Assembly: GCA_964036665.1 (NCBI GenBank)
Contig: OZ038529.1
Coordinates: 124,001-188,000, forward strand
Source of the DNA: Gordius sp. MW1
Taxonomy: Eukaryota > Nematomorpha > Gordioida > Gordea > Gordiidae
DNA length: 64,000 nt
Direction of reading: 5' to 3'
The first letter of the stretch is position 1. Every line of letters starts with the position of its first letter. Shown one piece after another: positions 31,745 to 53,267 of this stretch. The notes beneath the pieces are model-generated. The model saw nothing but the letters and a program-made list of their open reading frames with translations, was not told where the DNA came from and searched no databases. Made by a program: the position numbers and the translations under genes.

Positions 31745-32559
31745 TTATGGATCAATGCATTGACAAGTTGGACATCCTTTATTATTAAGGATACGACCGT
31801 ATTTACAATGGGTTACTGCAAAGCACTCCAAGATCGGACAGGGATTACAAGTGCAAGTGGGGCAGCCTCTTCTATTTAAAACATGACCGTGTTCACAATC
31901 CGTGTCATCTAAACAAGGTAGCTTGATGCATGGTCTACAGGAGCAAATAGGGCAGCCCTGTTCATTCGTATTGTGGCCGAAGTTGCAATTGGAATTCAGG
32001 AGACAGGGCAAGTCAGTTGGACACAATTTGCAATCGCAAATGAGACAATTGGTGATGGGATCTACAGCGTGACCCAGGGTACAATTGGTGTAACTCAAGC
32101 AGGTTAGGGTTGGACAGGCTACAAATAAATATGTATCAAATGGGTGGGAAAAATATGATTGACGATTGCTGAGTATTCTTGAATTTTGTAAAAAGAATGT
32201 GATATTTAATACTACTTACGCAGGCATTCGCACAATTGACACCCGTCAATATCGGTTTTGAATCCGTGAAGGCAAACTATATCACAAGGTGATACGTGGC
32301 ACTCCACTAAAATGGAGAAAACATTTATGAAGGATATCCAACATAAAATTTCAATATATTTATGTTTAATATGTAAAATTGAATTTAAAAATACGTGATT
32401 CTAAAAGTTGTATATAATCAGAATATTTATAGACTTACCTATAAATAAATGGATGAATAATCAATATTATCAAAAAAATACGTATATGAAATCTGTATAT
32501 TTACCAGTTGGACGAATTTGACACAGAAAAAGGCCTAAGAAGATAGGAAAAGCAATCAT
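31745..32559 (-). CDS. Secreted cysteine-rich protein with five antistasin-like repeats
   Basis: Three exons: 32559-32505 (MIAFPIFLGLFLCQIRPT, a signal peptide), 32306-32220 and 32118-31745, with matching phases. The mature protein is a string of five repeats with the antistasin pattern C-x-C...C..G....GC..C.C: CHVSPCDIVCLHG..., CPTLTCLSYTNCTLGHA..., CLLNSNCNFGHN..., CLDDTDCEHGHVLNRRGCP, CFAVTHCKYGRILNNKGCP. Total about 167 residues. Antistasin-type domains generally act as extracellular serine-protease inhibitors; the actual target here is unknown. The gene stands alone, on the same strand as the ATPase downstream of it. Confidence 0.88.
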
Positions 32560-33960: not shown

Positions 33961-36900
33961 TTAGTAATATGTTTCTCTTTCGATAAATCCTCCTCTATTG
34001 TGGCGAATGACCCATCTCCTCAATTCGTCATACACGAATATCAATAGACTGAACGGAGTGGGGGCAGCCACCAGAAAAATCTGAAATAGTAAATAATAAA
34101 TTTTTTAAAATAAAATCAAATTTAATTATGTTTAAAGAAGCATTAACATATTATTCTAACGTTGCAACACTATTATCTTACTTAAGGGGATACATTTTGA
34201 GGCCTCTGTCCATGCCTGGACAGTATGACAAAAAGGCAGCAACCGCGGTCTCAAAGAAAAGCCCAAAGTTAAGAACTTGATTTCTAAGGGAAAAAATAAG
34301 AGAATTCATTAAGAAGTCATTCTGCTAGCAAAATGTTAACAACTCAACATAATTTGTGAAGTTTACCCCATGCCTTGTTTGAATAAAGAATTTATCCGCG
34401 TTTTGCAAATGATCAGATCTGCCCATTGCACTATGACAATTGATATGAAGAATGCCGTATGACAGGTATGCTCTAAAATCTTTCGCTGTTCATAAGTCTA
34501 CCATATTGAATATTACAGATTAAACCATATTTAAGTTCAAAAAGCCTAATGTACATGGTCAATTACAATTTTAATTATTAAATTTTAACAAGATTGGTCA
34601 AAGCGACGTATATAGTGAACGGAGCCTATTAATGACTGAGTATTTAATTTTCAAATTGTATTTAACACTAAAAGTTAATAACATCTATTATCTTTGTCAA
34701 TAATTAGTTTACATCGTCACACCTTATGACTTTTCACTTACTATATGCAATAAATATATGTTAAATAGACTCTACTACGCATAAATTCCATTAACGGTAT
34801 TCAAGCACGCAAAGTAATCTTAAAACTTCTCAATTTTTTAACAAATTCATAATATTACTTTAACGTTAATTTAGATTTTAGATTAAAAAGGTATTTTATC
34901 AGATCTTACCCATTCTTGTCCGTAAGAATCTCTTAGGTCATTTATGGCACCGCTGTCCCACGATTTTCTAATACCGAAAAGATGCCTTGGCCAAAACCCA
35001 TTTTCCCCCATTATAACAAAATAAACGAAAAATCCGGCACAAGCCTGGATCATTCCCACTTGACCATAGGCCACACTTATTAACCTTTAAAGCGTAAAAG
35101 ATGCATTTAAATTTGGGCAAAACCATTAGTCCTAATAAGTTTAGAAGTAATATTATGTAATACTCCTATCTGAGAAAAAGTTAGTTCAATAAGTCTATGT
35201 ACATATGTTAATTTTCTCCCAGCAATTTTAAATTTTTTCATAGTGGTTAAAGGAACTGCAATAGTTGAGTCTTTAAATTTGTGAAACATATCTCTAATTG
35301 GAATTGGTATACGATATATATATATACAATTAATATAAATATATATATATTGATTCATGTATGTGTCCAAAATGAGCTAGTTTTGCAAAATTGTAATAAT
35401 AAATTATACTTTTTAAAGTGTTTTATAAATGCAAATATCCAAGGTATGTTTTATATAAAACCTTTCGTTGACTAATTTGTCGTATTTAGGATTGCGCGGT
35501 TTCCTTAACATAATATCACTTTCAGCTTTTTCATAGGCTAATGATATTGCTGGCACCTAGGAAAATTTAATGAGAGCTTTCATAACATCAGGATTTGATT
35601 AGAGCATTCGAAATTCGAAGTTACAGATTAAACATTTGGTTATACTTTTAACAGGTCATTCTATGTAAATAGCTTAAAACTGTAAAAATCACTATTCAAA
35701 TTTAAGAAACTTAACTTTGTACAAATTCTGTTTATTTATATGTTGCCTAATCACGTTTTTCAAAGAACATACTTAAAATATGGTTATTGAGCTTGCAACA
35801 AGTTATAAATGATCATTTTAATTTTGTTTTGATTGACCAATAATGTAGGCAATTGCAATTTCGAAGTCTTTTAATAATGTACTTTAAAGTTTAAACAAAA
35901 ATTTATAATAAAAATTGTGAGATAAATATGTTTATAATATAATTGTTTTATACTAATGATATCACTAATTTTTCCTTACTAAAAACCATCTTTCCAACAT
36001 ACTCATTTACTCAGAATCTTACAAAAAATCATCAGTGTTGACCTGAATAAATTTTTTTTTGTGATAAAATTCTAATACATATTAAATGGTCCTTTTAAAA
36101 GCCCTATGCCCCTTGTGTTCCAGAAATATCTCATAAACAAAATTGTTTTTTACAACATGGCCCTGTTAAAAATAAATGCTTCTCCTCAGGGAAGCTCGCT
36201 CCCCCAAACACTATATGTCCACCATCTAAGTTAATGTTGGGAGATAACATTAATATCAGCCCTTCTGGTACAGATATTCCTAATCTAATACCTCATCAAA
36301 CCTACTATACCACAAATGAAAAAAATGACATGACATGGAGCTGAGCCTTTTTATCTCAAGCATTTCCACCAACTATATCCAGAATTCCAAGGGGGGCCCG
36401 GGCGTTCATGCAACAGTTTTTAATAAACTTACTTAAAAATATTATTTCTCTCCCTTAGAACCTATCCTATTGGATTCTCTTTTTACATTTTATCTATTCC
36501 TCAAGACAAGGAAACAAATATCACTTATAATATTAAACAATCAGTTTTAAATTTTGACAGTCAAAACAGCCCTCCATCATATAACTAGAAAGGAATCCCA
36601 AATATTAACCCCCAAACAAAAAGCGAATGTAATCTCTAGAAAAATTCACTCATTCAACATCAAAAGTGCAATGAGATACCTTGAAGAAGACAATTCATTT
36701 TTAAGTCCTTCACAAAAATCATATGAAGAAATGGTTCTCAAGCATCCCCAGAGTCTATCTTCTACTTACCTATCGCCCTCGCAACCTTCAGATATTGCTT
36801 TTAAGTCATCAGACATTCGAGATGCCATCTTATCCTTTCCTATGGATTCTGCAGGTGGTCTCGACGGCATAAAACCAATTTTTTTAAAAGATCTTATAAC

Positions 36901-39900
36901 AATTGATAAAAATAACTCCTCCATCTTACTAGACTTACTCACAAAATTTTGTAACCTTTTCGTCAATGGGTGTATACCTAAAGATATAACGCCCATAGTC
37001 TTTGGAGATAAGCTTTTAGCTATAAGGAAGGCCGACAATTCAGAGGCATCGCTATCGGCGGTGTCTTTCGAAGAATTATTTCTAAATTAATTTGCTCGGC
37101 AATCAAACCCATATTGACCCCTACTTTAATTCCGCATCAACTAGGCTTTGGAGTCAAAGGAGGGTGCGAGATAGCTACCCATGGCGCACGCTTAGCCCTG
37201 AAACACCTCCCTCTGGGTGACTCCTTTATAAAACTGGATTTTTAAAATGCTTTCAATAGCATTCGCCGCACAGCCTTCATTAATGATTTTATCAAGCTAT
37301 TTCCCCAATACACCAACTACATCATTTTAAGTTACGGATGTCCTTCGATTTTGAAATTCGGAGAATTCTTCCTTGAATCCGCAGAAGGGATCCAACAAGG
37401 CGACCCCCTAGGCCTCCCTTTATTCTGCTTGGCTATAAATCACCTCTTAACGAAATTAACAAAAAATGTAAATTCACCCTTTATGTCTGGTATCTAAATG
37501 ACGCCACTCTCGTTGGCACCCCTGACAACCTAGTCCAAGCACTAGATGTAATACATGTTTTTTCCTTACTTTAAACTTATGTTTAAACGCCTCTAAAAGT
37601 GAAATATATTCGGACTTGGATAACATCCACCCAAAGTTTTTTAACTTTGCCAAAATTAAAAAAGACAATATGTATGTTTTAGGCGCACCTATCGGGGGCC
37701 CTGAGTGCCTTAAGAACTATTTAGACAAAAACCTCTCTTCTTTAAATACCAAATTAGACATTTTTAATTCTATGCCCTCTCATCATTCCTTTTACATTAT
37801 AATAAATTATTACAACATTAGCAAAATTTTATTCTGCTTCCGCTCCACGCAAGCTTTTTTATTTAAAGATGTCTTACACAATTATGAACATTTTTAAATC
37901 CACACTTGAATTAATTTTAAATATTTCTTTTAACACGAATACTTGGCTCCAAGCCACTCTTCCCACAATATCCGGCGGTCTAGGTATCGCTCCCCAACTG
38001 CGATTTCCTTAGCCGCCTTTATTTCCTCCTCCCTTTCTTTTAAACAATTATTAACGACCTTGTCCCTTTCTCACTCAACCCCTCTATCAATCAAGCCTTA
38101 TCTCTATGGAATGAGAATGTCAATTTAGGAGTTGACATTCCTCAATCATATTAAATGCAAGTTTGAGTCGCGGTTGTTGCTTACCTTCTCTCGACATGCG
38201 ATGCCAAACAGCATTGCAATCTTAGGTCATTGGCTTTCGACCAATTTGGTCATGAATGGCTTGAAGCTTACCCTAGTAAGTTTTCGGGAATGTTTTTAGA
38301 GAACCCCACCCTGTCCTTCAACATAGCCCTCCGCTTGGGCTGTAAATACACGTCCCATACCCCTGCCGGCTTTGTAATTCACTTGTAGATGAGGAAGCGC
38401 GTCACCCTCTAAATTGTAAATTTAACAAAAGCTGGTATAGTAGGCACTAAAAAATAAAACACTGCTTCAAGCTGCCCTCAGGGCAAAAGGTCCTTCCATC
38501 CTTGAACCGTCAGATCCCTCTCTCGAAGGGCGGATGCGTCCTGACGGTTCGTCACTTATCCCATGGGACAAAGGCCTATTCTTAAATGGGACTACACCTG
38601 TATTGACCTGTTTTTCCCCCCTCCAACGATACTCACGACCCCCTTGGATCGGCAAAGCATCGTAAATCCTTAAAATACTCAGCTTTATCACAAACCTCTA
38701 TTTTTATTCCTATCGTCTCGTCGTGCTCAGGGCCGTTTGGGAAGAGCGGATTAAATTTTTTTAAAGAACTCAATAAACGCTCGCCCCCTTCTAAAATATC
38801 AAATAGTTTTTTAGACAATCAATTGACATTGCAATCGCTAAATCCAATTCTTATTCTTTGATGGATTCAATGCCCATTCTTAAAGAAGTTGAAGAAACGG
38901 ATAATGCGTTTTAATCATTTTTTTATATATGTTTTCGTTCTTGTATCTTTTTTATTAATTCTACTCTATATTTTATACTTTTTTTTCTTAATAAAGCATG
39001 TCAATTCAAAAAAAAATCATCTTACCATATCGGTTCCTAAATCAATGCACAATATAGTGACAGTTCCTAATGCCAAAGGGATCCCAGCTATGATGTAGAA
39101 AAGGAAAGGGCTCATTTCAGGTATTTTACTGGTCAGTGTGTAGGCTATTGACTTCTTTAGGTTATCAAAGATTAGCCGTCCTTAGGTAACATATGATTCA
39201 AGCAAAATAATATTGATTAAGCACCAAGCTATAAACTTTGGATATTAAATTGAAAATTAAAATGTACATGTATTCTAAAGGAGTATTATACAATTTTTGT
39301 ATTTTAATTGTAAATGATATGCTTTTTCATCGTAATTTTATAAAGGGGTCGCAAAATATTTATATGATTTATGTTAATAAAAGTTGCCCGAAATGATCTA
39401 ATTCAATGAGCAATCTATTGCTTAACTATTTTAAATAAGTTTCTTTTTAAACAACTAAATTATTCCAACTCAATATTAATGTTATAAAGGCTTGAAATAT
39501 AACATGTCGTATTTGTTAGATATAAATCATATTTAAAAACTAAATTTTCAGAACAAGTTATATTTTGATTCAGAAACAAGGAAAACAAATTTTTAGAATT
39601 CTAACCTTCTTCGACACCAGTAACAATGGAAGCAAAATTATCATCTAACAGAACGATGTCGGCCGCTTGAATACTAACGTCACTGCCCTCTATACCCATG
39701 GCAACACCTAAGAATATAAGATTAAATAAATAAATAAATGCAAATAAATAAATAAAAAAATAAATTAATATATAAATTCCCACACCTATATCAGCTTTTT
39801 TGAGGGCTGGTGAATCATTTACCCCATCACCCGTAACAGCAACTATGGCACCTTGTCGCTGACAACCTTCCACTATGATAAGCTTTTGTTGGGGCGAAGT

Positions 39901-42900
39901 TCGAGCAAATACCATTTCTGGATGAATCCTCAGGGTTTCGTCTAATTCATCGGAGGACATATCTCTCAACTGACTCCCGTGAATTACAGCCGCCTTTGCT
40001 TCTCTACGCCATCAATTTTTTATTTATTTATTTGAAGTTATAAACATTATAGAAACAGATATGATATATAAATGATAAAATAGAAATAAAAAAATCACAA
40101 TGGAAATCGTTAAATCCACCAGGTTCGCGCTTTTAAAGTATTTTAGTCCTAAATGTAATTTCTTTATTTTAATGTAAACATATTGCAACAACAACAAAAA
40201 ATAAGTAAATATATATATTTCAATTAGAGCTCAAAGGTATTACAATTATAATCCGCGAGAAGTAGCCAGCTATCGGCCAAGAATTCGAATCATATTTAGC
40301 GATTAGGATGCAAATTTTTTAAGCAAGAAGTTAAGGGAATATTTGAAAATAAGGCAACCTGCAGATTTCTTTAGAAAATTTAATCGCGCATGGTGCGAAA
40401 GTCCCTGAGCATGAGGCAACAAAAAAATTATCACAAACATTAAAACTATTGTGTGTTGTTGGTTAACTCTAAAATAGAAAGGATCATTTGACCTATTTGC
40501 CCCATCTAACAGCAACAATAATTCTTTAGTTGTTGCCGAGGGGCGAAAAACCAATAAATGCAAAGCCCTTATGTCCTCAAACATTTTATTCCATTGATCG
40601 CTTCGTGTTTGGGCACCTTTGGCAAACAGGCCTTAGCTTTTTTAAAGATGTAGGAAGATGATGTCCCCCGTAACATTCAGTATCCATTTTACTGAAATAA
40701 GGACTTGGTATTCTTATGAAATACAATCTTAAATGGTTCGCGGATTTTTGGCCAATTTTGGAAGATCCTCTCGATGATGCTATATTAGTATGGCATTTAT
40801 ATCATTTTTTAAGGCATTTTATTTTATTGATTTTATGTATTTATTTTATATAATCCTCAACGGAGTTTTAACAAATAAATTTAAAAAAGATTAGCAAGGA
40901 GGGCATGTTAGGCAGATAGAGGATATGGTAGTGAAAAATCATTCAGATGGGGGGGGGAGAAGCAATTTAGATGTGGCGTGGGGCAAACAGAGATGTGATT
41001 GATAGAAGTATGTACGCAGAGCAAAAGACGCGGACAAAAGATAGAGGATTAACAACATTAACAAATGTTAAGCAGCGAAACCACTGGAACTCTCCATTCC
41101 TTACATTAATATTTTTGGTGCTTTTGTCTCGTCTCCAGAATAGTTTGAATAACATAGTAAATTTGTGTATTTATAATACAAGTGTCGGACTTATCATATT
41201 TCATTATCACAAATTAAATTAAAAAAACTATCATCATTTCATTGCACACCACATTAAAATACTTTTAGATCCTAGTTTATCTTTAGTTTAACTTAAGCTT
41301 CAGAATATATTGCTCGTAAGCGACTTGCCAAAACTGACGAGTTGACTCACAATGCATATATTAATATATCTAAGAAACCATTATTAAACTATGCTCACTA
41401 TACAAATGCAAAACACATTAAAACACATTCCTTCGGCCTCCAGTTTGTCTGTGAGTTTAACTTCAAGTCTATGAATATAAGCTCGTAGTCCAGTGTTAAG
41501 CCAAATGACGAGTTAACTCACATCGAATATATTAATGTATATACTGCGGAATGAAAGATCAGAAGACCTAATGTTATTTTGAGGAATTCTATGCCATTAG
41601 AGTTAAACGCGTTTAAATTGTGAGATTCAGTTTTTATGTGTATGATACGTGGAATCATAAATACATGATTACATAATATTATTTAATATCTAACATTGTT
41701 TCGAATCCTAAACCAAAGTTATTGAAGATTAGGACGACAATTTAAAAAAAATTGTAACGATTTTTGACATAAAATTAATAAGCTTTGCATCAATCTCATA
41801 ATTTGCTATTATTATATTTTGGATTAAAACAGTAGGTCTTCTGGAGATTTTATATCATAGAGTCATAAGCATAGCAAGGATTTAATTTAGACAAGCTAAA
41901 TGTATGTTAATTCCTATGCCTCCAATTTAAAAGCATGTAAATGCTAACCTCAATTGAAGTTCAAAAAACTGCCAAAAGTTTCAAATTTGGTTTTTAGAGA
42001 TGGTGTTAATATATTACATATAAAAGGTGATATTGTCAACCAATTGAAGGTAAAAATGATATACTTTAATAGTTCATTTATATTTTTATAACTGTAAATT
42101 TATCCAATAAAAAGCTTTACCAAAAATGTATTCTATTAGGGTGATTTTCGGATTTTTATAACAATTAAAATTCCGGGCCGTATATTTTAATAGGCGAAAA
42201 TTTGGGCCAGGGCCGGGCCCCTAATTTTTTAATTTAAAATTAGGGTCCGGGTCGGGCATTAGAAAATGGATTTTGCAGGTCTCTGGTCAAGGTGTACAGT
42301 CCAGCCCTAATATATTCAAAACCAATTTTCGATGATTCTAAAACATCTTTTAGCCGACACATATAAATGTATTTACTAATGTTTTATTTTAAAATTAATT
42401 GAAATTTCCAAAACAGGAACAGACCATTTCTAATAAGCTTTTACCATTTTTCTATCTATTTACAGCTTTTAATTCTTCCACAACACCTGCCACCCCCTTC
42501 CAAGCCAAAATATTCAATAAAAAAACCGTTGGTTTTAACAATATTAAGCTATTTTAGAAATAATAATTGTAACAAATTGATGTTTATATAATAATATTTA
42601 CCTGGGATTAACTTGTGAAACTGGCACGTCCAATCTTTTCGCAATTTCCTCCACTGTCATACTATCAGGCGATATGATACCAACTTGGCGGGAAATAGCC
42701 TCAGCCGTTATCGGATGGTCCCCAGTCACCATTATAACCTGCACAATTCATATAAAATTTAAATTTTATGCATTAAAAATGGTTAAAATGCTTTCAATTC
42801 TACACCACTGCTGGGAAACTATTTTGAAATGCTATGACAAAATTTCATAACATAATTAAAAAATTTGAAGACGTAATATTGAAAATTTGTTAATTTATAT

Positions 42901-45900
42901 ATTTACACATAATTTGACCCCCCCCCCCCCAAAAAAAAAAGAAGAAAAAAAACTTGCTAAAAGGACTTTTACTAACTTTTATGCCAGCGCTACGACATTT
43001 CGCTACTGCATCTGGCACGGCTGCCCTAGGTGGATCTATCATAGAAATCAAACCGACAAACCTGAAACCGGCTAAAGGAAAATTTATTTTTTCTTCATCA
43101 AAAGGGTACCCCCTTGGGAATTCTTCCAGTGGGAGCCAGTAATCACAAAATCCCAAAACTCTTTCACCCCTACCTCCCAATTCTGCGTAAGCTTCATTGA
43201 AATCAGCTTTTAATTTATCCGTTATAGGAATTTCTTTGCCATCTAACAATATAGTGTCGCATCTTTCTAAAATTGTTTCTGGAGCCCCTTTCATAACTAA
43301 TAAGTATCTAGCATCATCTGGTGTCTCGTGTATTGAAATCTATTATAAAACACATTTAAAATTATGATCTTTGGAAAATCTTATTGATAAATTACATAAT
43401 TCAGTTGGCATCTCATCGGCTTGAAAAAGCAATAAATTAATAAAAAATTTCATTTTTTTATATAAGTGTATGTACTTTTTTAATATGGTATTAAGCATAA
43501 ATTACCATAATATTTTATCGTTAAAATAATGTGAAATTTGAATTTATTTACTTGGTATTTGTTTGCGGAATTGAACGGAATTTCTAATATTTTTCTGTAT
43601 TTTAATCTCAGAGCTTCAACATCCCCATATGTTAATGTTACAGATTTTAATAGAGCCGTTTCCGATGCATCCCCCTGACATTCCCTTTTTATTCATTTTT
43701 TAAAAATTAACTTATAAATACAAAGTACTAAGTTTGTTTTTACAAAAATAAAAAAACATGCAAAAATTTTATTTTAATTTAAAATATGTAATAATATCTA
43801 GAAATAAAAATTAAAAAACCTGCGTTGAATTGGTATTTCGTTTTGACCTGGTTTAAAAAATGCACGATTGCATAGACCAGCAATGATTTCTAAAGCATTT
43901 CTTGTCTCATTATGAATTTTGTTTCCCGTCCCGGCAGTGGCTAAAATTCATTTTAATCATTTGCAATTAGGAATAAACTTGTATTAATTATATTTTTGGG
44001 GTATTTATTGAAAAAATAGAAAATTTTCGAACTAAAAATATTTTGTTTTTCCACCAAAAGTATACCTATCTGATTTTCTGAAGTGTCTGTCTCCCATATT
44101 TTGTCATCGTACCACATATGAGCTACTGTCATGCGATTTTGGGTCAGGGTTCCAGTTTTATCCGAACATATGGTAGAGGTTGAGCCCAATGTCTCTACCG
44201 CCTCCACATTTTTGACTAAGCAATTTTTAGCCGCCATTCTTTTAGCCGTTAACGTCAGGCAAACCTGTGATTTAAAAATTCAATTATTTATAAATCATGT
44301 TGAACATATTTTAAATTTTTTTTACATTTATCTGCAATTATTAAAAAATTAAATTGATATCTTATATGTATATTTTTTATTCCTTAATAGTCCAATCGTT
44401 AGCAATCGAGCATATTGAACAATTTTATTAATATTAAATTAAATAAATAATTAACCAGAAGTCAGTCAAACCAAAATTATACAATACATATACAAAAAAA
44501 ATAAATTGTTTACAACATTGGAGCCAATTATTCAGTTATTGAAATTTCACCTAGTCTACAGCAACACATATTTTAACTGGAATTATAGTATTAATTGTAA
44601 AAATCCAGGGAAAATTATTGAAAAAAATGATTTTGAGATAATGTTTACGGTGACAGTAGGTAAGAGGCCTTCAGGAACGTTGGCCACAATAATTCCAATG
44701 AGAAATATAACGGATTCTAACCAAGTGTAGCCCATAGTTAAGGCTATAATAGCGAAAGTAATTCCTAGGAAGAAAGCTACGGCCGTTATAATATTAATGA
44801 AATGATCGATTTCTTTATGAATTGGAGTTTCGCCTGCCTCTATATTAGAGGCTAAATTGGCTATCCGCCCCATAACTGTTCTGTCACCCGTCGATATTAT
44901 CACTCCTCTGGCGGTACCTTTGTCAAAACATTTTTTAATAAAATCTTTTATTTATTAATTATTTTATAATATATGCAAAATTCTCAAAGAAAATACAGCT
45001 TTTTATGGGCTTAAATTAATAAGTTAATTGTGATTTATTGAAATTACCTTCCACTGCATTAGTGGAAAAAAAGGCCAAATTTTTTGTTTCGAGAGGATTA
45101 TCACTTGTTTTGATAGGGGATCTGGATTGTGGTTCAGATTCACCCGTCAATGAAGAATTATCAACCTAGCAATGTATGTAAAACTTACTTCTACGAAAAC
45201 ATTTAATTTCTGTCTCTAGCAATACTTAAGTAACAATCTTATAAGTGTAATGATATAAAAAATTGAAAAGTTAGGATTTTTCTAAATATAATGTCAATTA
45301 ATAATCTATATCGTAAAGCGAAAAAATAATTTATATAATAAAATGGAATTACTTTAAAACCGTGACTATTGATGATACGTATATCAGCAGGGACCCTGTC
45401 CCCAAATCTAACTTCGACAACATCTCCAACAACTAAATTTTCCACGCCCATCGCTTGCTTAGCTCCATCTCGCCACACCACCGAATGCTAATAGAATTGC
45501 AATAATAAATTTGTAGAGGCTACGAATTAAATTGAACGCGCTAATTGGAATCAAAAACCTTCTTTCGCACGCTACTTTCCCTTGACCCCGTCTAGGCGAA
45601 TTCTAACACGTTACTTTATTTAATAGCCCCTCGCTTTTACTTAACCATCACGTTATTTTTATTTTAATAGCCCCTCGCTTGTACTTAACCATCACGTTAT
45701 TTTTATTTTAATAGCCCCTCGCTTGTACTTAACCATCACGTTATTTTTATTTTAATAGCCCCTCGCTTGTATTCAACCATCGCCTGATTATTCAAATGAT
45801 AATGGGCTCGCGCAGCTACATAAGCACAACCTTTAAAACATTATTATTCATTTTTTTGCAATAAGTATCTCTTCTAAATAATGAAATAAACCACTTCACA

Positions 45901-48900
45901 TTCTAAAAAATCTTTAATTTTTTCATTTTTTTAAAAAATTAAATTGCCCTTTCTAATTTTTTTTGTTTTTTATAAGCAGATTGATTTTTTTTGTCTATTA
46001 ATTGTATGCAAAACGTGCGAAAATATAATTAATAAGTAGGCATGGAGCCATGGATCAAAAATGTATTAGAATTTACAATTTCCATGGTGATATAATGCTT
46101 AACACAGAAATTTTTTGGGGTCGTGTGTAATTGAGATTTTACCATTTTATTATTTCTTTATTTTTATTTCATTAAGTCCATTTTTGATTGAACACTACCA
46201 ACGACGGTCCCAAGTCCGTGTGAAAAAAAGTGAAGGGTTAGCGTCAGGTCGGAAGCCGGCTGTAAAAAAGCAACTCCAAACAACATGGCAGCTTCAAATA
46301 CGAACTTATACCAGAATGCTAGGGCGTCCTCCTCAAACGACGCGCATTGCATCACCCGCCCGTGCAATGTGAAGAGTATACAAGGGTTACCGCCTCACTC
46401 ACAACGAAGGCGGTTAAGAAATCTAGTTATCGGACGGACAAGAGTGGCCAGCTGGAATGTGGGCACGCTGACGGGGAAGAGCATTGAGGTTGCGCAGATG
46501 CTAAAAAGGCGAAGGATACACATAGCGTGTCTACAAGAAACGCGGTGGCATGGAACAAAAGCCAGGGAGCTAGGAGATGGTTACAAGTTATACTACTCGG
46601 TTCCCCATCACGGAAGAACAGGGCCGGTATACATAGCGATTCCTTTAAGGACAAGGTAGTCGAAGTTAAACGATGCTCGGATAGATTGATGTGCATAAAG
46701 CTGGCGGATCAAGGCGGCCTTGTCAATGTTATTTGTGCGTATTCGCCCCAGGTTAAATGTTCCGAAAATGAGAAGGACGAATTCTATGAGAAGCTCGAAA
46801 AAGATACGCTACGTGAAGACTGACGAGAATCTCACCATCGGAGCAGACTTTAATGGGCACGTTGGGAAAGAAAGGGGAGTGTACGAACGAAATCACGGCG
46901 GGCATGGCTATGGGGTGAAGAATAAAGAGGGAGAGAAGTTACTACAGATGGCGCAAGCTTACGATATGGCCATTGTGAATACCTTCTTTCAGAAGCGTAC
47001 CGAACATTTAGCGACGTACAGCAGTGGGGATCACCTTACACAGGTCGACTACATCCTAGTGAAGCGCAAAAATTTGTGGCAAGTTAAAGATTGCAAGGTT
47101 ATACCGGGGGAAGAAATCGCCAAACAACATCGGCCAGTTGTCCTCGATATAGCAAGAAAGATTCTTCCCGAAAGGAGAAAAGTCTACACACCAAGGACAA
47201 AGTACGAAAAGCTTAAGGATGATCGTGCAAAGAAATGTTTCACGCTCGAGCAACTCCGCTCTTCAAGGTTGCAGGCTTGGGGGGGGGGCGACATTAACAA
47301 AAGGTGGGACACCGTTGCAAATGTTCTAAAGGAAACGGCCTTTCAAATCTTGGGACGAACTAAGGGCGGCATAGCTCACAAGCGTGAACTATGGTGGTGG
47401 AATGACTCGGTCAAAGAGGATATAAAAGAAAAGAAGGCGTTGTATCTACGATGGTACAAAACGAAGAAAGGAGAAGACTACGTGGCATATCGTGAAGCGA
47501 AACGCAAAGCTAAGATACCGGTTGCGATAGCGAAGAACGAGGCTTACACCGAGATGGCAAACAAGCTCGATACCAAGAGCGGCGACATAGTCATGTATAA
47601 ACTCGCAAAGATTAGGGAGAAAAAAAGTCGAGATTGAAAGTCATTAAAAGTGAAGAGGGACGAACGTTGTGCAAACCGAAGGAAGTCATCAAAAGATGGA
47701 AAGATTATTTCCAAAATATGATGAACAAAACGAATGATAGAAGACCGCTAGAGAGGGTGGAACCGAACTCGAACTTGGTTTTACCATTGCAGGCTTATGA
47801 ATTAGGCGCGCAACTAACGAAGTTGCGGAAAGGGAAAGCGCTAGGTCCCGATGATCTACCGATCGAAGCTTGGCTTGGGTGCAAAGGAGAAGGAATCGAC
47901 ATAATGACAGGCCTATTTAACGCTATGCTGTATGAGAGTCGTATCCCTGACCAATGGGAAAGTACGATCATACCCATATACAAAGGCAAAGGAGACGCGC
48001 AGGAATGTGGCAACTTTAGAGGTATCATGTTGACCTGCCACTCACTAAAACTACTAGAAAGGGTGCTAGTGAAAAGGCTGAATGACGAAGTATGTCTCTC
48101 GCCTAATCAGTTTGGATTCGTGGCCGGTAAATCAACGATGGATCCAATCTTTGCGTTGAAGCAGACGATGGAAAAATATGGCGACATAAGAAAGAACTTA
48201 CACATGGTCTTCATCGATTTAGAAAAGGCCTACGATACGGTTCCGAGAGACTTAATATGGTGGTCCCTTTGAGCCAGAAATATACCCAAAGGATATGTTC
48301 GACTTATCAAGGAAATGTATAATGGCGCGGTTGCATCTGTTAGGTCTACCGTAGGAGAAACGAAACCTTCCGAATAATAATGATTGGACTAAATCAAGGG
48401 TCAGCGTTAAGCCCATTCTTGTTTAATCTAATTATGGATACAATAACAAAGGACTTGCACAAGCCAGCCCCTTGGACTATGCTATATGCCGATGATATTG
48501 TCCTATGCGATGTAACAAGAGAAGGGGTTTTTCATCAGGCGAAAAAATGGTCAGAACGTTTTTCGGAATTCGGGTTAAAGGTCAGCGAGAAGAAAACGGT
48601 TTACGTGCAAACGATGGGCGGTAGTCCGCAAATGACAAAAATGACGGTCCAATGTACACGGAGGTTGATAAGTTCACATATCTTGGCTCGCTATTACATC
48701 AGGAGGGAGGATGTACCGCCGAAGTCCATTCTCGGATCAAGAAAGCATGGCTCAAGTGGCGCAGCATCTCCGGTGTTATGTGTGACAAAAAGATACCAAT
48801 TTGGTTGAAAAGCAAGGCGTACAAAACCATCGTGCGACCGGTCTTTCTTTACGGGAGCGAAACATGGGCTGTAACCACCGCGGAGGAGAAACTCTTGCAA

Positions 48901-51900
48901 GTCACGGAAATGAGAATGGTGCAATGGAGCTTAGGCTACACCAAGCTGGATCGCAGGACGAACGAATCCTTGATGACAAAGATGGGTATACAAGCGACGA
49001 AGTTCGGTGGTACGGCCATGTATTACGAAGAGACGAGGACGATGTCACACGGCGAACGCTGGAGATGGACGTGCCTGGAAGAAGAGGAAGGGGCAGACCA
49101 CGTGCCACTTGGAAACGACTGGTCAAAAAGGATATGGACGTCAAACAGATGGAAATTGGCATGGCATTTACGCGACTCAGATGGAAGAGGCTGCTGAAAA
49201 CTTACCCCACGTCTGTGGGATTTTCAACACGATAAAGAAGAAGAAGAAGTCCATTTTTGATTGAAAATTTCGTAATTAAAAATAGATAACGAATGTATTA
49301 TTATCAAAAAATTTGTATTAATTAAATTTATGTCAAATATGTTTTGGGCCTTTCATGATAAAATATTATTTTGCACAAAAATTTATATTTTACTTGTGGT
49401 ATCATTTTAGCAAATGATTCCATAATCCTAGAACTTTTAGCCTCTTGATAATATGAAAAACAACCAGAAACGACCACCACAACCGTTAGCACAATCCCCA
49501 AGTACAACTAATCAAACAAAAAATTACATGTATTATATTAACATTAAAACGGGTTTTTAAAAATAATGTTTGAATTTAAATTGAGAAAATTATTGCATGA
49601 TTTATAATATTATATATATATTTGTAAATATCATTAAGTATAAAGATCGTATTTATTTTGCATGTCCGGACTACTTGTGTAAAAATAATATTATTATTAT
49701 TAGATTAGATTTAGTGGCATAAGATTAGTTTAAATTATTCTGCCCAAACCAGGCCCGGTTTACTTAATTTCCCACTGGCCCGCCTGAACTCATCTAAGTG
49801 CCCACCCACTCATGCCCGAATCCTTAGAACTGCCCGAATTGCCCGACCCAAATTATGATTTTTTTAAATTTATAGTGATAATTTGGTCATATTTTCCGAA
49901 AAATTTTAGTCTGATACACGGTGTTTTTTTGATAAGAAATAAGATAAGTAAATATTATACAATCAGTTAAAAAGGTGACAAAATAATACTCAAAGACAAA
50001 ATAACACATTATATAAAAAATCTCTTAAAATCAGAATTGCCCGAACGTTAGTGTGTCCGCCCGGGCCCCCTCCCTCCCCCCCCCCCCCCCTAAAAAAAGC
50101 TGAATATATTGGGACAGCGAGCCCGACCGGTCTTTTCTAGGCTATGATAAATTTTTTTTAAAAAATTAATCTGCTAAACTAAAAAATTACACGGTTCAAC
50201 AAGAAAAATCAACCGGCAAACTTTTTGCAGATTCTAGTAGAGTTTTTTACGGTGAACACAAATATATTTTTAGTTTTTCCCCTATACGTCAAGTTTTTTA
50301 AATATTCTTTGTCAAAGTTGCCGAAAACGCGATTTTAGCGCTTTTCAAACGTCAATAACTTGCAAATTAGTCGGTAAAAATTTTATTTAATAGATTTAAT
50401 ACGTAGATATAGGGGAGAGGAATGTATTTAAAATTTTTTTGTATTCTAGCACTTTTATTTTTAAATATTATACAAAATTAATTATCCCTATCTTTTACAT
50501 TGACAAATTACACCAGACTTGAGGGCGCCCTCCCTTCTCTTCAACACTAGGAATTAAGTGCGTGTTGTTGTTTTGGTAATAGTAGTAGAAGGGTAGATAA
50601 ACAACAACTCAAACAACAACACGCACTTAATTCCCAGTGTTAAAGAGAAGAAAGGGCGCCCTCAAGTCTGGTGTAATTTGTCAATGTAAAAGATAGGGAT
50701 AGTTAATTTTGTATATAATTTAAAAAGTAAAAGTGCTAGGAAAAAAAATTTGTGAATACATTTCTCTCCCATATATCTACGAATTAAATATTTTAAACAA
50801 AATACCGACTAATTTGCAAGTTATTGACGTTTGAAGAACGCTAAAATCGCGTTTTTGGCAACTTTGACAGCGAATATTTAAATAACTTGACGTATAGGGA
50901 AAAAATTAAAGACATGTTTGTGTTCACCAACTCTACCAGAAGCTGCAAACAGTTTGCCGGTTGATTTCACAAGTCCATTATTTGTTGACCAGTGTTATTT
51001 AATGTTTCTGTTTTTAAATAAGTCTTCATTTAAATATTCTCTTTATATCGCGTTATGTTTACGCTGTAAAAAAAGTAGAGGATGTCTTTTTAAACAATAC
51101 TAAAGGCTAGGCAATACGATTGCTATAAAGCGTTTTCTATTAATTTTATTCGCCTGCAGCAATATTGATCTTTTAAGTAACTATATTTAATTACTGGATT
51201 TTAATGGTAAATCTATTTTTTTTTAAATTTGTTGTTCCAAATTTTTTAGAACTATGTATAAAATGTAAAAATTGATAGAAAAGGTAAATTGATTCTTAAT
51301 GTCCAATTTATAATAAAAATATTCTTGTAAAAAACCGAAAATATATTCTAATTGCGTAAAAATTAAATTAAAAACTTAAAAGTATTTTTAATTTAGTACA
51401 ATTAAAGCTTATAAAAGTCTTAATTCAAAGTTAAACATCTAAAATATTGTCGTTTTTTCCAATTTCCTCACTAATATTAATTTTTTTATTAAAAATCAAA
51501 ATTTAATATATATTTTGATAAAGTGAATATACGTTATCTTTTGACACCACTCTCATGGAAGATGCTTGAATGGCATAAGCTATAAAACATAAGATGGCAC
51601 CCATCCATAGTAAAGTCGCGAATCCACCAAAAAGTTGTTTGCAAAATTTAACCCATTCCGGTGTTTGTGGTGGCAAACTTAAAGCGTTCGGACCATCTCT
51701 CGCCAGGACCCGAGCCGCTTGTTCGCTGGATAAACCCTAAGTTTGTTATATTTTTTTAGTGTAATTTAATTCAAAAATTAGTAAAAAATTATCCTAACGT
51801 TTATTAAAATGTTGGTATTAGTGCAAGGAACTTTTGATATTCTATCTATCAATTTTTTATAAAATAGTTTATTTAAAATATTAAAAATTTAATCTAATAA

Positions 51901-53267
51901 TAATAATGGTTAAATTCCCAAATTATGCTATATTTTTCATAATTTATCCGTAATAAAATGTGAATGATTCAAGCTTCAATCAGGGCAGAAATTAACATAA
52001 GATCAAGAGCTCAGCCTAAGTTGGACAAGACAGGACAGGACGAGACAATCTTTTTTAAATAGCAATTATTTTAATTATCATATTATAATAATAATAAATA
52101 GCTCTAAATAGTTTGAATTCTATAACACCATCAGCCAGGACATAGTTTTAAATGCAAGTCATATTTAAGTTATTACCTTTTCCGATGTCCCAAAGCGTCT
52201 ATAAATTTCTTCCAATGGAATTTGATGAAAATCCTATTGATAACGTACATATAAACAACTAATAATAAAAAAATAATATTAAAAGTATAATAGCAGTAAT
52301 GCATAAATTTTAACATTAAACAAATATGAATCTTTTTTTTGAAATACTAAAATAATAAATAAAATATATGTATGTGCTTAAAACAATTGTGAAAAATAAA
52401 AAAATTAAATATATTTACTATATCTAATTCTTTTTTCAAATCGGCAATATCTTCTTTATCCGGTTCATCTTTGTTAGGAGTGTACCAATGGGCCTGGGAC
52501 ATTTTTCGTCTCATAGATATTTTTCTCAGCCTTTCATCACTATCCGGTATTGGGTCATAGCCATCCGGCCTACTAGGCCTCTAAAATAATTTTTTTTCGT
52601 TAATATTAGTGTTGTAAAAACGGCTGCGTTTTGTTTAATCGGCCTTTCGTTTTAGTCGACTAAACATTTACAGAATTTTTTGGTCTGTTTTTCTTAGTCG
52701 ACCTCTTAGTTAAAATTAGACCAGAAGCGACCGTTAAGGTCGATTAAACAAAACCCAACCATTTTTACAATAGTTAGTATCATAAAAATAAATTAAAGTT
52801 TATAACAGCTATATTTTGTCTGATGTTTTGTTTCCAATATTTCGGATAAAATGACATTTTTCATGATACTAATTAGAGGTTTGAAAATTTTTTATATTTT
52901 TAAAAACATATAATAATACATTTTTACTAATCTTCTTTTATTCATTATTTAGGTATATTTTTATATAAATCTGTAAACGCACTAATATTCGTCAATAATT
53001 TATCTTTCTCTTTAAGCTTGAATTCAATCCATGAATTTATGTAAGTATCAATATTTTGCAAAATAAATTTATTATTTATAGACTTTTCCTTATTAAAAGC
53101 TTTATGAAATCTATGAAGATTTTAGCAATTGAATAGTATTATACATTACTTGAGTTAATTTTATTTTTTTGCAAATTCCAAAATTTAGAAAATATTTTTA
53201 TTTAAAATCATTTTTTAAAAGTTATAAAAACATTTACCATAATATAACGGTTGCGGTCATCCATCAT
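33961..53267 (-). CDS. Na+/K+-ATPase alpha subunit-like P-type (P2C) ATPase, 21 exons
   Basis: Plasma-membrane cation pump. Exons: 53267-53238, 52580-52419, 52233-52177, 51736-51533, 49507-49394, 45487-45353, 45165-45048, 44917-44649, 44264-44066, 43940-43820, 43684-43552, 43339-42977, 42738-42602, 40003-39786, 39707-39606, 39180-39026, 35556-35462, 35084-34910, 34497-34367, 34283-34182, 34080-33961; about 1,046 codons. Seen: TGES loop ([10 protein letters not shown]), phosphorylation site [45 protein letters not shown]6 CIDLGTD, TM8 VQWADL, C-terminal ETYY. Odd points: TM5 TSKIPE where the family has TSNIPE; TM4 [10 protein letters not shown] (usually LLATV); M1-M2 loop [12 protein letters not shown]; unusual N-terminus [16 protein letters not shown] in place of KTRRNS; one-base frame conflict in the last exon at 34060-34064. 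Introns hold an RTE LINE, an RT relic and MITEs. Confidence 0.97.
35107..35380. repeat. AT microsatellite and intronic sequence
   Basis: A TATATATA-rich tract around 35310-35352 inside a short ATPase intron. The open frame reading through it on the minus strand looks accidental. Confidence 0.5.
36100..38880 (+). pseudogene. Decayed non-LTR-type reverse transcriptase element with C-terminal nuclease-like region
   Basis: In an intron of the ATPase, opposite strand. In order: [20 protein letters not shown] (36820-36890), [12 protein letters not shown], then after a frameshift [26 protein letters not shown]-stop-[41 protein letters not shown], and a LGAPIGGPE block near 37680. Downstream comes [15 protein letters not shown] (38530-38580), [15 protein letters not shown] and [10 protein letters not shown] motifs are clear; the YxDD box is lost in the broken stretch around 37490-37530. 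Several stops and frameshifts make it dead. The RPDG / WD / K-KY spacing suggests a PD-(D/E)XK-like nuclease (inference). No poly-A tail or target duplication was found. Confidence 0.8.
40010..41250. other. Large ATPase intron segment, no recognised gene
   Basis: AT-rich intron DNA. An open frame at 40303-40584 (minus) and another at 40971-41222 (plus) resemble nothing I know and overlap repeat-like sequence; a G-run lies at 40949-40958. Confidence 0.35.
41255..41545. repeat. Diverged tandem duplication, unit about 180-200 bp
   Basis: A GTTTAACTTAAGCTTCAGAATATATTGCTCGTAAGC-like block (first half 41288-41323) and GACGAGTTGACTCACA (41337-41352) recur as AGTTTAACTTCAAGTCTATG and GACGAGTTAACTCACA (41455-41523). 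Function unknown; lies in an ATPase intron. Confidence 0.55.
42160..42300. mobile_element. Relic terminus of the outer hAT family (GGGCCGGGC subterminal repeats)
   Basis: CCGGGCCG, GGGCCAGGGCCGGGCCC and GGTCCGGGTCGGGC lead to TTTTGCAGGTCTCTGG, matching the right end of the 7370-9313 element (TTGCAGGTCTCTA). The other end was not found. Confidence 0.6.
45622..45785. repeat. Tandem repeat, 44-bp unit, about four copies
   Basis: Unit AATAGCCCCTCGCTTGTACT followed by TAACCATCACGTTATTTTTATTTT-like sequence, repeated nearly identically with the last copy diverging after CGCTTGTATTCAACCATCGC. Lies in the ATPase intron that also holds the RTE LINE. Confidence 0.9.
46193..49246 (+). mobile_element. 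RTE-clade non-LTR retrotransposon (LINE), near full length
   Basis: A 3,054-bp insertion bounded by a perfect 19-bp target duplication AAGTCCATTTTTGATTGAA at 46174-46192 and 49247-49265. It ends in a short GATAAAGAAGAAGAAG-like tail, as RTE elements do. It lies antisense in the ATPase intron between exons 5 and 6 and is clearly more GC-rich than its surroundings. Confidence 0.95.
46285..49235 (+). pseudogene. RTE-type ORF: apurinic-like endonuclease plus reverse transcriptase, interrupted
   Basis: Single polyprotein broken into pieces. Endonuclease: [35 protein letters not shown], then [14 protein letters not shown] (46830-46875) and QVDYILVKR. Reverse transcriptase: [17 protein letters not shown] (47820-47880), [71 protein letters not shown], catalytic [10 protein letters not shown] (48480-48510), then [13 protein letters not shown] and [14 protein letters not shown]-terminal: [20 protein letters not shown]. 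Breaks: frame changes near 46610, 46805, 47630, 48375, 48640 and 48965, plus a TGA at about 48271. Catalytic residues are intact between the breaks. Confidence 0.93.
49735..50130. mobile_element. Relic of a GC-repeat hAT-like element
   Basis: Runs of CCCGAATTGCCCGACCC-type words (49745-49855) and CCGCCCGGGCCC with poly-C (50057-50090) flank an AT-rich middle, much like the subterminal repeats of the hAT elements at 7.4-9.3 kb. No clear inverted ends or duplication. Confidence 0.4.
50186..50998. mobile_element. Foldback element of about 0.8 kb in ATPase intron 4
   Basis: Almost the whole length is one inverted repeat. Left arm: ATCAACCGGCAAACT, ACGGTGAACACAAATAT, GTCAATAACTTGCAAATTAG, ACTTGAGGGCGCCCT. 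Right arm: the complements in reverse order, ending TTGTTGACCAGTG. The hairpin turn is near 50575-50600 (AGTAGTAGAAGGG). Single-arm relatives lie at 2945-3170 and 56100-56235. Confidence 0.85.
52607..52772. mobile_element. hAT-type MITE (TAGTGTTGTAA family), copy 3
   Basis: Element of about 166 bp starting TAGTGTTGTAAAAACGGCTG and ending with the complementary CAACCATTTTTACAATA. Flanks GTTAATAT and GTTAGTAT match at 7 of 8 bases. It lies in the first intron of the Na+/K+-ATPase gene, about 25 bp upstream (in gene orientation) of exon 2. Confidence 0.8.

Follow-up and report, generated by a model that had tools for sequence, protein, structure and literature searches.

Single-lysine forms of the Na+/K+-ATPase alpha1 subunit, with lysine instead of asparagine in transmembrane segment TM5, have been described in fish, mostly of fresh water (PMC4006040 and PMC6987325, in their accessible portions, both citing older work). 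The teleost examples are salmonid alpha1a, Anabas alpha1a and alpha1b, Heteropneustes alpha1b, and zebrafish atp1a1a.3 and atp1a1a.5. According to excerpts of PMC6987325, citing Jorgensen 2008, lysine for asparagine in these fish isoforms lowers the Na+:ATP ratio. In salmonids, alpha1a is described as high in fresh water and as reduced in seawater (PMC4971688, available sections), and in Anabas the lysine is present in both the freshwater alpha1a and the seawater alpha1b (PMC4006040, available sections). In the H+/K+-ATPases a lysine is placed one residue away, at position 775 (extracts of PMC9463140). More generally, a TM5 lysine serves as a built-in counter-ion in other P-type ATPases, as stated in parts of PMC10654040.

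Here we describe a pump gene in a 64,000-nucleotide stretch of DNA from the hairworm Gordius sp. MW1, called the window throughout. It is an intact Na+/K+-ATPase alpha gene on the minus strand, recognised from 33961 to 52580. Its reading frame stays open from the N-terminal region as far as the terminal ERETYY (33964), and the TGES, DKTGT and GDGVND motifs as well as the C-terminal ETYY all lie within open exons. The gene begins with an N-terminal cytosolic exon (52419..52580; its 5' limit, about 52580, and the start codon are not fixed) and a small exon of 20 residues (52174..52233). The TM3-TM4 exon (44646..44918) and the exon with the phosphorylation motif (44070..44261) are followed by two P-domain exons within 39604..40002, namely 39784-40002, which carries GDGVND, and 39604-39705. 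The TM5-TM6 exon (39026..39180) is bounded by an acceptor ending in CCTAAG and by the donor ATG/gtaaga, both good, and the last exons (33961..35556) run from the TM6-TM7 linker to TM10, ERETYY and the stop; all of them lie on the minus strand.

The acidic residues of the cation sites are kept (TM4 Glu, TM5 Glu and the TM6 Asp pair), and TM8 Gln and Asp, TM9 Glu and the C-terminal YY are present as well; the site roles and the pig numbering of these residues are assumed throughout. In trees, the window alpha nests inside the animal Na+/K+-ATPase alphas. Judged by its sequence, the window protein is a Na+/K+-ATPase alpha subunit of the animal P2C group, among whose accepted members the Asn776 position is variable.

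TM5 of the gene reads TLTSKIPEM. In the assembled window sequence the lysine codon is AAA on the minus strand (39125..39127; TTT on the plus strand), at the position that we take to be Asn776 of pig alpha1. A previous sequence-only reading of this DNA had reported this lysine, omitting its strand, together with a retained TM4 asparagine; both are borne out, the TM4 codon being AAC (44681-44679). It had missed the second lysine copy in the genome, the hairworm relatives with the same change, and a proline in TM4. This proline, at the 331 position, is encoded by CCT (44660-44658), and the segment reads GLLPT. The usual TM4 is Asn..LA, found in 140 of 148 Ser-Asn forms with a readable TM4, and GLLAT is the reading in most animal pumps examined. 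In addition, the TM5-TM6 exon carries Met, Gly and Ala at positions 780, 790 and 794, a trio common to 27 of the 104 tabulated lysine forms, counting the two of this genome.

In having a TM5 lysine and a kept TM4 asparagine, the window gene is of the single-lysine alpha1 kind. The teleost rows that we read have the same combination, and there too asparagine isoforms coexist, as far as the partial sources describe them; carp, zebrafish and perch-family lysine forms also have the TM4 proline. Unlike the teleost lysine pumps, the window gene is placed separately in the tree, and unlike salmonid alpha1a, in which TM8 Asp and TM9 Glu are replaced, it keeps both of these residues.

The sequence-only reading had looked to Artemia alpha2(KK), and rightly stated that this pump has two lysines, one in TM4 and one in TM5: they are seen in PDB 8k1l (VAKVPEGL and TSKIPE). 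The Artemia pump has lysine at the same TM5 position as the window gene, and Ala at the 794 position. In TM4, however, 8k1l reads VAKVPEGLLAT, whereas the window gene has asparagine (AAC) and, seven residues on, proline, so that a pair of TM4 and TM5 lysines is absent here; the residue after IPE is Leu in 8k1l and Met in the window gene. Because 8k1l is double-lysine and fish alpha1 has a single TM5 lysine, the closest model is provided by the fish pumps; Artemia alpha2(KK) was dropped from that place after the TM5-region search. The idea of a single-lysine version stands as a pattern; as a new category it does not, since the fish isoforms were already described. Gastric and non-gastric H+/K+-ATPases likewise have a basic residue in the TM5 ion pocket. 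Their lysine lies at 775 beside a kept asparagine (TKNIPE in P0094), whereas the window gene has its lysine at 776 and keeps serine at the Ser775 position (TSKIPE). Fish are already known to have the single-lysine kind. What is new is that hairworms have it too, probably through two gains, together with parallel companion changes. The partial texts that we found on Nematomorpha or hairworms with sodium or ATPase contained no report of a hairworm pump.

In the genome (212 Mb in 12 contigs) a search located at least eight loci of the alpha type, and contig C3 carries all of them. Weaker matches on contigs C2 and C4 (PEGLPAVITT, PEGLPIVVTV, PEGLPLAVTL) presumably represent Ca2+ pumps. TM5 reads TSKIPE at two loci, the window gene and a copy at 3.03 Mb of C3, and TSNIPE at three (21.47, 23.53 and 23.60 Mb); the other readings are SSNIPE (25.07 Mb), THNIPE (18.88 Mb) and TSNVPE (21.51 Mb). 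In TM4, GLLPT is found at both lysine loci and in the 18.88 Mb copy, and GLLAT at 21.48, 23.53, 23.60 and 25.07 Mb. The copies at 21.47, 23.53, 23.60 and 25.07 Mb are of the Asn type and coexist with the lysine copies, a coexistence that the sequence-only reading had raised as a point to check; among the Asn copies, only that at 23.60 Mb was read nearly whole (973 of 990 positions).

Two further copies are unusual. The one at 18.88 Mb (C3 18.877 Mb; L024, L050) combines a histidine at the Ser775 position with the TM4 proline, an uncommon ion pocket. The one at 21.51 Mb (C3 about 21.508-21.520 Mb; L027, L029, L037, L057, L058), read in part, has DANGL for DKTGT and has lost PEGL; from its sequence, it is likely a catalytically dead or non-pumping relative of the Na+/K+-ATPase.

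The two lysine copies differ mostly at synonymous sites. Between the window gene and the 3.03 Mb copy dS is 0.726, dN 0.034 and dN/dS 0.047 (932 codons), and an unbroken run of 199 identical residues starts in the P domain, spans TM5 and TM6 and reaches into the TM7 exon. The window gene is intact and maintained by purifying selection. That it should be a decaying duplicate, its lysine the product of neutral drift, is scarcely credible given this ratio at a dS of 0.73, the unbroken identity around TM5-TM6 and the open exons; a pseudogene is ruled out because dN/dS is low and the exons are open. The lysine recurs in the second locus, where the neighbouring codons differ synonymously, and again in two proteins of Gordionus; this goes beyond chance and makes an error in one codon unlikely.

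Gordionus is a hairworm (Nematomorpha), and three proteins of Gordionus sp. m RMFG-2023 were used: P0029 and P0171 have the lysine, P0023 the asparagine. In a 33-protein tree, the two lysine copies of our genome and its 21.47 Mb Asn copy join these three proteins (100/97), and a 17-row tree with the trait residues masked gives the same grouping (99/97); judged on this single gene family, the genome is that of a nematomorph. The two Gordionus lysine copies join the Asn copy of Gordionus (100/99). Support is only moderate (94/82 in 33 rows, 85/79 in 17 rows) for the union of the window gene and the 3.03 Mb copy with the 21.47 Mb Asn copy of the same genome. Because a single clade of all four hairworm lysine copies is rejected (p-AU 0.00135; 17 chosen rows, TM4/TM5 trait residues masked, the tested group having been picked after a first tree was seen), the sequences suggest that the TM5 lysine was probably gained twice in hairworms.

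Gene conversion is the alternative to these two gains, which are the simpler reading. A single ancient hairworm lysine copy, with conversion by Asn copies mimicking two gains, would account for Lys together with Met780 in both lineages and for the moderate grouping of the window's copies with the 21.47 Mb copy, and conversion is possible as all eight loci lie on one contig. The AU rejection speaks against it, with the caveat on the choice of group, as does the TM4 proline, which stands at different residues in the two lineages (GLLPT here, GLPAT in Gordionus); we regard this history as rather unlikely. It concerns history only and is compatible with the explanation of function that we favour. 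As a separate observation, TM6 of the Gordionus lysine copy P0029 is CIDLETD, with Glu in place of Gly between the two ion-binding Asp.

Over the window TM5-TM6 exon, identity amounts to 51/53 residues with the Metynnis and Pangasianodon lysine pumps and 50/53 with the crayfish one. It is 48 and 49/53 with the Gordionus lysine copies, 48/53 with the Gordionus Asn copy and 46/53 with three of the Asn copies of the same genome. Among the residues in common are Lys776, Met780, Gly790 and Ala794. The link of the lysine with the last three is biased, because the TM5 segments used in the searches carry those residues; Met780 occurs in 16 Asn forms and Ala794 in 25.

None of the segments used in the three protein searches covers TM4, so that its state is less biased. 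Among the matches listed whose TM4 is readable, 21 of 95 lysine forms carry a proline at 330 or 331, as against 0 of 148 Ser-Asn forms; this genome's copies are not counted, near-copies inflate both groups, and TM4 was not readable in 7 lysine and 25 Ser-Asn rows. Two proteins combine the proline with Asn776, and in both it is residue 775 that is basic: His in the 18.88 Mb copy and Lys in Darwinula P0016. When 8 proline gains are placed on the tree, 8 of 8 map to branches with a basic 775/776 (binomial p 0.0064), a wider trait defined after the two exceptions had been seen; for Lys776 alone the figure is 6 of 8 (p 0.059). In gastric P0094, residue 775 is basic and the TM4 proline is absent. 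Sign tests on independent pairs were not significant for K776 against proline (median p 0.5), for basic 775/776 against proline (0.125), or for a basic residue against any TM4 change (0.0625).

Bacterial and archaeal relatives (L063-L142, the best 80 of 578 in a ranking whose query has GLLPT of its own) have GLLP in 80 of 80 loci; TM5 is Ser-Asn in 69 of these and other or unread in 11. A strict tie of the TM4 proline to the lysine is weakened by the pairs tests and by these prokaryotic loci that join GLLP with Ser-Asn. Because every prokaryotic relative kept has GLLP, the Ala331 of animals looks derived, and the proline in animal TM4 looks like a return to an old state.

The spread of the lysine across animals was followed in three protein searches, which kept the best 120 of 7986 scored matches, the best 120 of 2819 (window TM5 query) and the best 120 of 273 (leech TM5 query). 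They gave 277 distinct proteins, many of them near-copies, from carp above all; among these matches, 102 have Lys at 776. As the lists are ranked and hold the best rows only, they are no census of lysine forms. The fish among the matches listed are catfishes, characins, carps, zebrafish (atp1a1a.3 and.5), pike, perch, tilapia and salmonids. The other animals are the frog Rhinophrynus, the leech Helobdella, the crayfish Procambarus, the snails Physella and Biomphalaria, the ostracod Cyprideis and the nematode Rhabditophanes. Lysine is also found in the choanoflagellate-like P0146 and in unnamed metagenome proteins, one of them double-lysine (P0181). Two near pairs, Homarus (Asn) versus Procambarus (Lys) and Plakobranchus (Asn) versus the two snails (Lys), are consistent with a freshwater link, the habitats of the lysine-bearing animals being general background.

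A tree of 73 rows requires 14 changes for the lysine; the starred branches force at least 9 of them, and one reconstruction has 11 gains and 3 losses. For this tree, 30 of the 277 proteins were dropped for lying outside 800-1260 aa, the 21.51 Mb copy was excluded, and 11 of 254 rows were unreadable (the leech included). Removal of near-copies left 108 rows, at the cost of the 3.03 Mb copy, and 36 of the 108 were dropped by hand as redundant, mostly arthropod Asn rows along with five fish lysine rows; Drosophila was re-added. The double-lysine P0181, an ENA protein (VAKVPEGL and TSKIPE), groups with the acanthocephalan P0273 and the tyrosine-lysine P0261, and scores slightly lower to 8k1l than to vertebrate pumps. 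It is not established as Artemia because of that score and that grouping, and is perhaps a second origin of the KK pocket.

We now propose that the window gene probably encodes a functional, specialised hairworm alpha subunit whose lysine fills a cation site, so that fewer ions would be moved per ATP in the service of uptake from a dilute medium. The published TM5-lysine pumps and the TM5 lysine of 8k1l suggest that the lysine amine would occupy one cation site as a built-in counter-ion. With fewer ions moved for each ATP, most likely 2 Na+ out and 1 K+ in, the pump would gain force at the expense of its coupling ratio. Its likely use would be ion uptake up a steep gradient in dilute medium, as argued for freshwater fish alpha1a. 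In the least certain step, the TM4 proline would probably re-tune TM4 for the lysine-filled pocket, as the second lysine reportedly does in Artemia, to which GLLP in the 80 prokaryotic loci (best 80 of 578), 69 of them Ser-Asn, is a counterpoint. Fewer cations per ATP is the best-supported reading by analogy with described pumps; the precise ratio, what the proline does and which tissue is involved are what we infer.

As a point against this reading, the second, TM4 lysine of the Artemia pump reportedly helps to keep K+ affinity, and a single-lysine pump may for this reason bind K+ poorly. It is improbable that the window protein is a Na+ pump with little or no K+ counter-transport, its lysine replacing K+ fully, or one that transports H+ instead of one of the ions: the acids that we take to form the K+ site (TM4 Glu, TM5 Glu, TM6 Asp pair) are kept, and the H+/K+-ATPase lysine sits at the neighbouring 775, not at 776. 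In favour of such a pump, TM5 lysines replace counter-ions in P1B-2, P3A and P4A pumps (PMC10654040, in part). Under the preferred reading of reduced stoichiometry, the link to fresh water is not clean: the Anabas seawater isoform has the lysine, as do Rhabditophanes, which lives in soil, and the brackish Cyprideis.

On a broader and more tentative reading, which we hold to be possible while leaning against it, the TM5 lysine would have arisen independently in many, mostly freshwater, lineages (twice in hairworms), the pocket then being re-tuned by a few recurrent changes: Lys, Tyr or Val at TM4 324, or proline at 330/331, and Met780, Gly790 and Ala794. It would then be a predictable route to low stoichiometry, the TM4 proline replacing the second lysine of Artemia. 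The steepness of the Na+ gradient that an animal can maintain is set by its pump stoichiometry, and hairworms pass from the body fluid of a host into open water. Should the lysine and its companions indeed have been reinvented in fish, crayfish, snails, leeches and hairworms, natural replicates would allow a test of how residue, stoichiometry and dilute water are linked, and hairworms may supply two such replicates in one phylum.

The window also holds broken open frames within the introns of the pump gene and antisense to it (46285-49235 and about 36554-37897, plus strand), which by eye resemble non-LTR retroelement proteins. Downstream of the pump gene lie cysteine-rich repeats (31748-32400, minus strand) that, again by eye only, resemble antistasin-like domains.
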